Assembly (NCBI RefSeq): GCF_024055715.1 | Contig: NZ_JAMXMV010000002.1 | Span: 558,001-622,000, forward strand | Direction: 5' to 3' | From: Actinoallomurus soli | GTDB lineage: Bacteria > Actinomycetota > Actinomycetes > Streptosporangiales > Streptosporangiaceae | Length of the DNA stretch: 64,000 bases | Shown: one piece after another, positions 61,444 to 64,000 of the stretch | Position numbering within the stretch: position 1 is the first letter of the stretch | Layout of the letters: each line of letters opens with the position of its first letter | Position numbers and translations under genes: made by a program | Notes under the pieces: model-generated | What the model was told of the DNA's origin: nothing | Database searches by the model: none | The model's input: the letters and a program-made list of their open reading frames with translations, nothing else

Positions 61444-62649
61444 ATGCGCGAGGTTGTGGTCTGTTCACCGGTTCGTACGCCGGTGGGGCGGTTCGGCGGC
61501 GCGTTGAAAGACGTCAGCGCGCAGGAGCTGGCGGCGACGGTGATCCGCGCGCTCGTGGAGCGCACCGGGGTCGACCCCCAGGAGATCGGCGACGTCATCC
61601 TCGGCAACTGCAACCCGAACGGCGACGCGCCCGCCATCGGCCGGGTCGCCGCCCTGGACGCGGGCCTGCCGGTGGAGGTCGCCGGCGTACAGGTGGACCG
61701 GCGGTGCGGCTCGGGGCTGCAGGCGGTCGTGAACGCGGTGATGCAGGTCGCCACCGGCGTGAACGACATGGTCATCGCCGGTGGCACCGAGAGCATGAGC
61801 GGCGTCGAGTACTACGCCACCGACCTGCGCTGGGGCCGCCCCGGCCCGCAGATCAACCTGATGGACCGCCTGGCCCGCGCCCGCGTCACGGCGGGCGGGG
61901 AGCGCCACCCGGTGCCGGGCGGCATGCTGGAGACCGCCGAGAACGTCCGCGAGCGCTACGGCATCGGCCGTACGGAGCAGGACGAGCTGGCCCTGCGCTC
62001 CCACGAGCGGGCGGTGCGCGCGCAGGACAAGGGCCTGTTCGACGACGAGATCGTGCCGGTCGAGGTCCGCGACCGCAAGGGCGTCCAGGTCGTCGGCCGG
62101 GACGAGCACCCGCGCGCGGACACGACCCTGGAACGGCTCGCCACCCTCAAGCCGGTGATGCGCGTCGACGGCGCGACGGTCACGGCGGGCAACTCCAGCG
62201 GCCAGAACGACGGCGCGGCCGTCTGCCTGGTGACGACGCGGGAGCGGGCGACCGCGCTCGGCCTGACTCCTCAGGCCCGGCTGGTGTCCTGGGCCGTGGC
62301 GGGCGTGCCTCCGCACCTGATGGGGCTCGGCCCCGTACCCGCGACCGAGAAGGCCCTCAGCCGGGCGCGGCTCAGCCTCGACGACATGGACCTGATCGAG
62401 CTGAACGAGGCGTTCGCCGCGCAGGTGCTCGGGGTGCTGCGCGAGTGGGAGCTGGACGAGGCCGACCTGGAGAAGCTGAACGTCAACGGCTCGGGGATCT
62501 CCCTGGGTCACCCGGTCGGGGCGACCGGCGCGCGCATCCTCGCGACGCTGCTGTACGAACTGCGCCGTCGCGACGCCCGCTACGGCCTGGAGACCATGTG
62601 CATCGGCGGCGGCCAGGGCCTCGCCGCGATCTTCGAACGCGTCGCCTGA
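61444..62649 (+). CDS. acetyl-CoA acetyltransferase (thiolase)
   Basis: 401 residues. Thiolase nucleophile Cys88 (VDRRCGSGLQ), the AGGTESMSG motif, NVNGSGISLGHPVGATGAR with the catalytic His, and MCIGGGQG with the second Cys. Condenses two acetyl-CoA or thiolyses 3-ketoacyl-CoA; probably a biosynthetic or degradative KAT2 type in the cytoplasm. Monocistronic, with a hairpin at its ribosome site. Confidence 0.93.
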   Translation: MREVVVCSPVRTPVGRFGGALKDVSAQELAATVIRALVERTGVDPQEIGDVILGNCNPNGDAPAIGRVAALDAGLPVEVAGVQVDRRCGSGLQAVVNAVMQVATGVNDMVIAGGTESMSGVEYYATDLRWGRPGPQINLMDRLARARVTAGGERHPVPGGMLETAENVRERYGIGRTEQDELALRSHERAVRAQDKGLFDDEIVPVEVRDRKGVQVVGRDEHPRADTTLERLATLKPVMRVDGATVTAGNSSGQNDGAAVCLVTTRERATALGLTPQARLVSWAVAGVPPHLMGLGPVPATEKALSRARLSLDDMDLIELNEAFAAQVLGVLREWELDEADLEKLNVNGSGISLGHPVGATGARILATLLYELRRRDARYGLETMCIGGGQGLAAIFERVA

Positions 62650-62662
62650 CGCGTTCCCGTCA

Positions 62663-62700
62663 CGGTCGTGGACCATCCCACGAGGACAGGTCCACGACCG
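62663..62700. terminator. bidirectional hairpin between thiolase and methyltransferase
   Basis: CGGTCGTGGACC and GGTCCACGACCG, perfect 12-bp stem with 14-base loop, between convergent genes. Confidence 0.8.
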
Positions 62701-62716: not shown

Positions 62717-63889
62717 CTACGGTCCGACCGGATTGGCCGGGTCGTCGAGCCACACGCGTTCGCCTTCCGAAGAGACCGTCAGCCCGAACCGATCACGGCC
62801 CGGACGCCCGAGGGACAGCCACCGGAGATACGGCTCGGAGACTTCATCCCACAGGCGGCGCGGCCCATGCTGTTGGACGAGGAACTCGGCCTCTCCGGGC
62901 ACGTAGTCCACCGACACCCAGGACCCGTGGTTCCCGGCATTGTCGAGCACCCAGAACGTCGCCTCGCCGGAATCCGTCTCCTCGTCGTAGTAGAGGCGTT
63001 TGTGCACGCCGGGCACGCCGGCGCAGATGAACAGGTCCGCGTCGGTGTCGTCGTGCAGGTGCCGCGGGTCGAGGCGGGTCGTCGACTCGGCCGGATCATC
63101 CGACTCGTGCACCCAGTCGAACGCGGACCCTCGTGCCGGGCGCTGCGAGCGCATCAGCATGTATCCGGCCGGGCTCGGAAACCGCCCCACGGCCGTTCCG
63201 TCGCCGACGACGGCCAAACGGGCCAGCCGGCCGTACCCGTAGCCGGGGCTGTAGGGGGTGAGGATCAGCCCACCCGGACGGGTCTGCTCCACCCAGGCGT
63301 ACGGGATCGTCGCGACCGCGCACGTTGAATGGACGCGATCGAACGGTGCACCGTCCGGCCATCCCTCGGCACCGTCCCCGACGACCAAACGAGGCGCGTA
63401 TCCGGCCGCCTTGAGGTTCGCCGCCGCCCGCTCCGCCAGCACCGGGTCGATTTCGATGGTGGTGACGTTCCGGTCGCCGATGCGGTGCGACAACAGCGCG
63501 GCCGTCCAACCGGTTCCCGTACCGATCTCCAGGACGCGATCGTGATCCTTGACCATGAGCGATTCCAGGAATGCGAAAACCGCCCCCGGAGCCGAGCAGG
63601 AAGAGCTGGCCAGCCCGTCGCCTAGCACGTCAGAGCCGCCGTCGTCGCGTTGGGTGACCAACGACGCATCGGAGTACACGGCCTCCCACCAGGCCGCTTC
63701 GTCACCGGCCCGGTCGACCGGGTATCCAGGGGCAGGACCGTCCGGGTTCGCCCAGGCGACGTCTGGCACGAAAAGGTGCCGCGGCACCTCGACCAGCGCT
63801 TGCCGCCACCGCTCATCGGCGAGGTCCCCCTGACCCGCGAGCAGGTCGGCGAGGGCTTCTGCGCGTGCACGCGGGTCAGAGGACGTCAT
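62717..63889 (-). CDS. protein-L-isoaspartate methyltransferase-like enzyme, RiPP-type
   Basis: 390 residues, against about 210 for housekeeping PIMT: the first 230 form the SAM fold (PRHLFVPD at 36-43, VLEIGTGTGW at 119-128, VTTIEIDP) and about 160 extra residues follow, as in the PIMT homologues of graspetide, lanthipeptide and imiditide clusters, which methylate Asp and form aspartimide. The region 95-104 (SSSCSAPGAV) replaces the usual TSSQP substrate loop. The ATG is 3 bases after the stop of a small basic peptide gene, so it likely modifies that peptide. Confidence 0.8.
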   Translation of the reverse strand: MTSSDPRARAEALADLLAGQGDLADERWRQALVEVPRHLFVPDVAWANPDGPAPGYPVDRAGDEAAWWEAVYSDASLVTQRDDGGSDVLGDGLASSSCSAPGAVFAFLESLMVKDHDRVLEIGTGTGWTAALLSHRIGDRNVTTIEIDPVLAERAAANLKAAGYAPRLVVGDGAEGWPDGAPFDRVHSTCAVATIPYAWVEQTRPGGLILTPYSPGYGYGRLARLAVVGDGTAVGRFPSPAGYMLMRSQRPARGSAFDWVHESDDPAESTTRLDPRHLHDDTDADLFICAGVPGVHKRLYYDEETDSGEATFWVLDNAGNHGSWVSVDYVPGEAEFLVQQHGPRRLWDEVSEPYLRWLSLGRPGRDRFGLTVSSEGERVWLDDPANPVGP

Positions 63890-63892
63890 CCC

Positions 63893-64000
63893 TCACTTAC
63901 CTCTCTTGCCGTCGCTCGGGTTGTCGTTGGTGTTGCCGCCGGTACCGCGCTTGCCGCCCTGCGGGTCTCTGCCGTCCGTCGGCGTGTTGCCGTCGCTGTT
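63893..64000 (-). CDS. putative RiPP precursor peptide, C-terminal part, cut by window edge
   Basis: The last 35 codons of a leftward frame are visible, with stop TGA at 63893. The residues are almost only Asp, Asn, Gly, Thr, Ser, Pro, Lys and Arg: SDGNTPTDG, then DPQGGKRGTGG, then PSDGKRGK at the end, with three Asp-Gly steps, the sequence most prone to aspartimide. There are six basic against five acidic residues. Only GGG separates its stop from the methyltransferase start. Start and leader lie outside the window. A linker or disordered tail of another protein is the alternative. Confidence 0.5.
   Translation of the reverse strand, partial: NSDGNTPTDGRDPQGGKRGTGGNTNDNPSDGKRGK

Follow-up and report, generated by a model that had tools for sequence, protein, structure and literature searches.

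At the right edge of the window, by which we mean the whole 64,000-nucleotide stretch analyzed here (G000:C22:558001-622000 of a 9.4-Mb Actinoallomurus soli genome in 60 contigs), a small gene that runs past the edge is followed by a gene for a long PIMT homologue. An earlier note, made from the window's letters alone, read the two as an imiditide-like pair. The locus poses the question of whether the small gene encodes a precursor peptide that its neighbor modifies, as in the imiditide (type I pamtide) class described in 2023, or whether the enzyme acts on something else.

The gene pair and its surroundings

The contig continues beyond the window edge, and extension into the region 615001-635000 (L003; window position = L003 position + 57000), a step that the earlier note had called for, made the small gene readable in full. 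It encodes a 42-residue peptide, MGRHGGGNSDGNTPTDGRDPQGGKRGTGGNTNDNPSDGKRGK, of which 35 residues lie within the window, and its ATG is immediately preceded by a ribosome-binding site, GGGAGGTGAGC. The gene is a complete ORF with its own start, which rules out the tail of a long housekeeping gene. Several features first noticed in the truncated gene were upheld: the enzyme ATG lies 3 bp past the TGA of the peptide gene, the part of the peptide within the window (residues 8 to 42) holds exactly three DG sites (D10, D16, and D37), and the order is precursor then methyltransferase, with no ATP-grasp gene between or beside the two. The description of the precursor as basic held in sign, but the peptide is only mildly so (net charge, +2). 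Coordinates are collected in Table 1.

Table 1. Features of the locus (window positions unless marked L003; residue numbers refer to the encoded product)
Feature	Position	Strand	Basis
PIMT homologue, long form (aspartyl O-methyltransferase, PAMT type), 390 aa	62717..63889	(-)	ORF, PCMT, TIGR04188
SAM-dependent PCMT catalytic domain, residues 96-215	63245..63604	(-)	Pfam PF01135, 97.7 bits
C-terminal part past the PCMT match, residues 216-390	62720..63244	(-)	TIGR04188 coverage to residue 378
WLSLGRP, residues 357-363, the WxxxGxP motif of RiPP PIMTs	62801..62821	(-)	motif scan
Putative precursor peptide gene, in-window part (residues 8-42 and stop); whole 42-aa gene reaches 64021	63893..64000 (whole gene, L003 7021-6893)	(-)	
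Asp37 codon (S-D-G-K), second candidate site	63911..63913	(-)	invariant 18/18
Asp16 codon (T-D-G-R-D-P-Q-G-G), first-choice candidate site	63974..63976	(-)	invariant in 18/18 distinct peptides
Asp10 codon (S-D-G), third candidate site; following residue varies	63992..63994	(-)	invariant 18/18
Perfect 11-bp inverted repeat (62664-62674 / 62689-62699)	62664..62699	(.)	read by eye
90-aa gene	L003 7296-7024	(-)	
102-aa gene	L003 7601-7293	(-)	
DprA/SLOG-like gene	L003 7650-8138	divergent	PF02481, E 1.4e-6, 28.1 bits (cut-off, 29.6)
NsdA-family TPR regulator gene	L003 8146-9504	divergent	NF053720, 138.4 bits (cut-off, 75)

Two further small genes lie upstream on the same strand, one for a 90-residue product that ends 2 bp before the peptide gene and one for a 102-residue product that overlaps the 90-aa gene by ATGA, and these short distances make a tightly packed set of four genes with the peptide and the enzyme. 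Neither small product matched a family above cut-off, the single match being to DUF6907 at an E value of 0.037. A DprA/SLOG-like gene and a gene for an NsdA-family TPR regulator diverge from the four, and no RiPP enzyme was found among nine neighboring ORFs scanned in Pfam. On its downstream side the enzyme gene faces a convergent thiolase gene, the end of which is at 62649; the inverted repeat between the two is a possible terminator. Beyond the regulator gene, a serine recombinase gene and a RepSA (pSAM2-type) replication gene directly follow a C-terminal acyl-CoA dehydrogenase gene fragment (L003 9653-13698); this region adjoining the peptide locus is probably an integrative element, perhaps inserted in the acyl-CoA dehydrogenase gene.

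In gene order and peptide size the pair agrees with published type I pamtides (PMC10787088). In SpaA-SpaM of Streptomyces sparsogenes and NmaA-NmaM of Nonomuraea maritima, a peptide gene of about 45 codons likewise precedes a long-form PIMT homologue with a WxxxGxP motif, no primary RiPP enzyme is adjacent, and the peptide has a conserved Asp near Gly/Pro and a basic C-terminus. The window locus differs from both in the two extra small genes packed tightly upstream. Type II pamtides (cysimiditides) have the same two-gene layout with a PIMT homologue, but that assignment was rejected because the 42 residues include no Cys and no CxxCxGxG motif, as against two such zinc motifs in type II peptides.

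The PQGG peptide family

A profile built from 11 peptides matched 19 places in 18 of 341 genomes of the family (3 of 68 genera); 11 of the matches carry the peptides used for building the profile, and 8 were new. An order-wide search returned the same 18 genomes, and beyond the family, among the 394 genomes of a class-wide draw, the window's own genome was the sole match. An enzyme relative lay directly downstream at 19 of the 19 places (tblastn), with the enzyme gene apparently interrupted in L138 and L146. Eighteen of the peptides were picked by the motif P[QH]GG, so the invariance of PQGG is partly a matter of selection; the nineteenth, L152, has a PGGG form and also three S-D-G sites. Invariant in the 18 aligned peptides were D10, D16, P20 to G23, G28, N34, D37, and G38, and position 17 was Gly in 94%. 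The 18 PQGG peptides consist of 27.7% Gly, 14.6% Asp, and 5.7% Pro, compared with averages of 17.3% Gly, 10.2% Asp, and 16.8% Pro for published type I precursors (PMC10787088); the peptides thus depart from the Pro-rich average of the class, which is descriptive rather than defining. Going by published descriptions, the window peptide is set apart from SpaA and NmaA as Pro poor, Gly/Asn rich, and endowed with three invariant Asp residues and the sequence D-[G/S]-x-x-P-Q-G-G. We conclude that the peptides form a Pro-poor subgroup marked by D-[G/S]-x-x-P-Q-G-G.

The closest comparison is with the corresponding locus of A. purpureus KCTC 19541 (G115:C17), the enzyme of which is the best named relative of the window enzyme (94% identical). 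Between the two peptide genes 10 codons are changed, 4 silently and 6 with a change of residue, such that silent changes do not dominate; D19 is Asn in A. purpureus, and D10, D16, D33, and D37 are kept. The suggestion in the earlier note that the product could be new may hold for the peptide sequence and the subgroup but not for the class, of which 1,414 type I pamtides are already catalogued (PMC13001092), and novelty is confined accordingly. A search of the literature on imiditides, pamtides, aspartimidylated RiPPs, and helix-turn-helix links, supplementary precursor lists lying outside its scope, recognized no publication on this locus.

One way in which the peptide could be conserved without being modified is if the true substrate were another protein of the locus, for example the divergent regulator or a product of the two small upstream genes, with the 42-residue peptide acting on the enzyme as its adaptor or regulator. 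The tight packing of the small genes with the pair would fit such an arrangement, as would their relatives elsewhere: the A. purpureus pair is preceded by relatives of both, and L145 by a relative of the 90-aa gene as well. At most PQGG loci searched, however, the small genes were not found (tblastn), and every one of those loci has the peptide, in its case by selection. Moreover, the invariant residues of the peptide include Asp followed by Gly or Ser, and two relatives in the class have been demonstrated to modify their own peptides (PMC13001092). We consider a different substrate improbable.

The enzyme and its relatives

The catalytic part of the enzyme matches PCMT in Pfam, and the solved structures matched by sequence cover that part only. 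Past the PCMT match, which ends at residue 215, the enzyme extends for about 175 residues; the earlier note was right that an extra C-terminal part exists and somewhat short in giving its length as 160. The extension is covered by TIGR04188 and not by repair PIMTs, and it exceeds the 100 residues expected of an imiditide-type PIMT homologue. Its WxxxGxP motif, known from lasso, graspetide, and imiditide PIMTs (PMC13001092), is well kept in a 44-row enzyme alignment, with W357 and P363 invariant and G361 present in at least 90% of rows. The best NCBIfam model was TIGR04188 (ATP-grasp peptide maturase system methyltransferase), at 333.5 bits over residues 13 to 378 against a cut-off of 380, and four precursor-paired relatives (L034, L036, L053, and L109) scored 315 to 336 bits. 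An ATP-grasp-paired relative, L063, reached only 276 bits, under the score of the window enzyme, and the model is therefore by itself a weak discriminator of imiditide and graspetide enzymes. The genome's best PCMT match, G000:C15:3595-4221 (L128), scores 505.7 bits to TIGR04364 (cut-off, 320) and belongs to the FxLD-system methyltransferases, another group of RiPP-type PIMT relatives.

A genome scan for enzyme relatives gave 163 places, and the best 80 of the 163 were analyzed with an ad hoc score for precursor-like neighbors that took into account composition, start codon, and ribosome-binding site. A precursor-like peptide of 26 to 52 residues lay directly upstream in 56 of these 80 homologues (9 PQGG, 39 Pro rich and many of these beginning MGKH, and 8 Streptomyces QDDSDS peptides), an ORF with an ATP-grasp motif in 4, and neither in 20. 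As a control, 800 anchors were drawn at random from these loci; the score accepted 2, and the adjacency of peptide and enzyme is thus above chance. Even these 2 were precursor-like peptides of the MGKH type (L079 near 2129 and L088 near 7065), each at a distance from the enzyme that anchored its locus, and they may be additional copies within the region.

A quick tree was built from 83 enzymes, with the fragment L046 dropped and SpaM and NmaM absent. The window enzyme paired with that of A. purpureus (support, 99) inside a set of seven PQGG rows (support 85, not starred), and three PQGG rows fell outside that set. The PQGG label required 3 changes on the tree, compared to a mean of 9.6 when shuffled; PQGG enzymes are clustered, though 3 changes do not establish a single clade. 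Rows from contigs C33, C15, and C10 of the window's genome sat on long branches. One supported clade held Streptomyces enzymes (L081, L084, L098, L100, L105, L109, L112, and L113) that are less acidic and have an acidic partner peptide of strongly conserved sequence (QDDSDS...NDGQGPADG; mean net charge, -5.25). Some related enzymes adjoin radical-SAM genes (L080, L096, L110, and L153 to L182), and rSAM-PAMT pairs with no known precursor are recorded in PMC10787088. The readable rSAM C-terminal tails are Cys/Pro rich (e.g., CEPxCxPGCDP), often with DG before a Cys, and may serve either as fused substrates or as ligands of the cluster. The latter are equally likely, because L154 has Asn in place of the CDP Asp and the Cys-Pro pattern is common to tails with no adjacent PAMT.

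Because ATP-grasp-paired enzymes are close kin of the window enzyme and lie beside the PQGG enzymes in the tree, the peptide might be a graspetide assembled in trans, cross-linked first by an ATP-grasp enzyme encoded on contig C33 and then given an aspartimide by the window enzyme. The genome does hold one ATP-grasp over the TIGR04187 cut-off (C33:504967-505905; two weaker matches fall below), but on a contig other than that of the window pair and directly before a PIMT of its own, which scores 424.8 bits to TIGR04188. The window locus also differs from group 13 graspetides or graspimiditides (fuscimiditide and amycolimiditide), the PIMT of which is related (TIGR04188) and some of which have XRE-type genes nearby (PMC13097080), in having no ATP-grasp gene and an enzyme under the TIGR04188 cut-off. 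We regard cross-linking in trans as slightly less probable again than a different substrate. Least probable of all is ordinary protein repair, in which the enzyme would mend isoAsp in damaged proteins beside an incidental Asp-rich ORF: the SAM-binding PCMT domain is common to repair PIMTs (Pcm/PCMT1), in Pfam and in solved structures alike, but the window enzyme falls below both repair models (TIGR00080, 80.6 of 159.05 bits; NF001453, 101.9 of 188 bits), carries the long C-terminal part, and has a fixed partner peptide adjacent at 19 of 19 profile matches.

The gene architecture, the conserved pairing, the three invariant Asp residues, the enzyme family, and the lack of an adjacent ATP-grasp gene all point to an imiditide, and in the tree that omits SpaM and NmaM the window enzyme sits among those with imiditide-like partner peptides. 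We conclude that an imiditide (type I pamtide) system is very probably what the pair represents, as the earlier note proposed and as the complete 42-residue gene and the placement of the enzyme now support at the level of sequence.

Proposed chemistry and regulator neighborhood

SpaM and NmaM convert Asp to a methyl ester, which loses methanol to give an aspartimide that can hydrolyze (PMC10787088, PMC13001092); by the authors' own account in PMC10787088, the isoAsp product of SpaM was not directly confirmed. By analogy with SpaA/SpaM and NmaA/NmaM, the window pair may carry out methylation, aspartimide formation, and isoAsp formation as follows. A linear 42-residue peptide would be produced together with a dedicated methyltransferase, the acidic enzyme would recognize the mildly basic peptide, and an Asp side chain would be methylated, most likely D16 in T-D-G-x-x-P-Q-G-G and possibly D37 and D10 too. 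The next backbone amide would expel methanol, and the resulting aspartimide would slowly hydrolyze, mostly to isoaspartate. D16 is the first choice because it is invariant, precedes Gly/Ser, and lies near the invariant Pro-Gly motif. D37 is a candidate because it is near the C-terminus, which SpaA requires for modification (PMC13001092). The choice of Asp, the guidance of recognition by charge, and the link to neighboring regulators are proposals specific to this analysis.

Consistent with recognition guided by charge, mean whole-enzyme charge was -19.3 for 10 PQGG, -17.7 for 38 Pro-rich, and -9.8 for 8 QDDSDS enzymes, and mean peptide charge was +1.2, +1.6, and -5.25, respectively. The Spearman correlation of enzyme and peptide charge was -0.49, and -0.28 (P = 0.054) when the QDDSDS group was left out. 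Matching was absent from the enzyme C-terminal part (0.04), the part implicated in NmaM. Charge matching would thus be one natural contrast that rests mainly on the QDDSDS group, not proof; this sister group, in which the peptides are acidic and the enzymes less so, is a natural setting in which to test whether charge guides recognition.

DUF5753-type XRE genes were counted with a profile of our own (E < 1e-20) within 3.2 kb upstream, loci with short flanks being left out. Such a gene was present at 7 of 9 PQGG loci, 6 of 37 Pro-rich, 1 of 7 QDDSDS, 2 of 4 ATP-grasp-paired, and 2 of 20 other loci; at loci with no recognized precursor it was instead downstream in 4 of 19. As L043, L045, and L047 are near copies of one another, the positive PQGG loci amount to five independent cases. 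The two negative loci are L037 and L034, the latter with a different HTH_31 gene upstream that points the same way, and the window locus has its NsdA-family regulator. At E < 1e-20 the upstream link is strong for the PQGG group, weaker for the Pro-rich group, and unclear for the QDDSDS group, and at a loose cut of E < 1e-5 XRE genes seemed to be general. In seven PQGG genomes, 331 PF19054 matches in 62.5 Mb give an expectation of 1.7% per locus, an approximate comparison because the count used our profile and the density used Pfam. We conclude that XRE regulators accompany PQGG loci at a rate above that expected from their density.

Graspetides of groups 11 and 13 have already been recorded as having DUF397/DUF5753 genes nearby (PMC13097080). 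Likewise, matches to DUF397 and to DUF5753 lie no farther than 2 kb from the graspetide-type cluster of the window's genome (G000:C33:502986-506602, ATP-grasp and PIMT). In Streptomyces endocoffeicus, SLOG-like and XRE-TPR genes (L038 600-2427) lie beside an ATP-grasp-paired enzyme and encode products 53% and 47% identical to their window locus counterparts. NsdA is a repressor of differentiation. XRE-DUF397 pairs of Streptomyces are regulators of differentiation and of antibiotic production (PMC10364602, PMC6262351).

The biological role of aspartimide-only peptides is named as the main challenge in PMC13001092. The PQGG subgroup is a compact test case, with three invariant Asp residues on 42 residues, natural variants, and fixed enzyme partners, and its recurring regulator neighborhood suggests a role. 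Published descriptions of the class give one modified site. A bolder reading, which we think unlikely, is that PQGG imiditides have aspartimide/isoAsp at two or three positions (D16, D37, and D10) of one linear peptide and are the output or ligand of neighboring XRE-type regulators, namely, the NsdA-family XRE-TPR protein at the window locus and the DUF5753-type XRE proteins at sister loci. We infer from this neighborhood that the 42-residue peptide might act as a signal. If so, the modified peptide would provide a first biological role for the class, as a signal that acts in the development of actinomycetes or in the control of their antibiotics.
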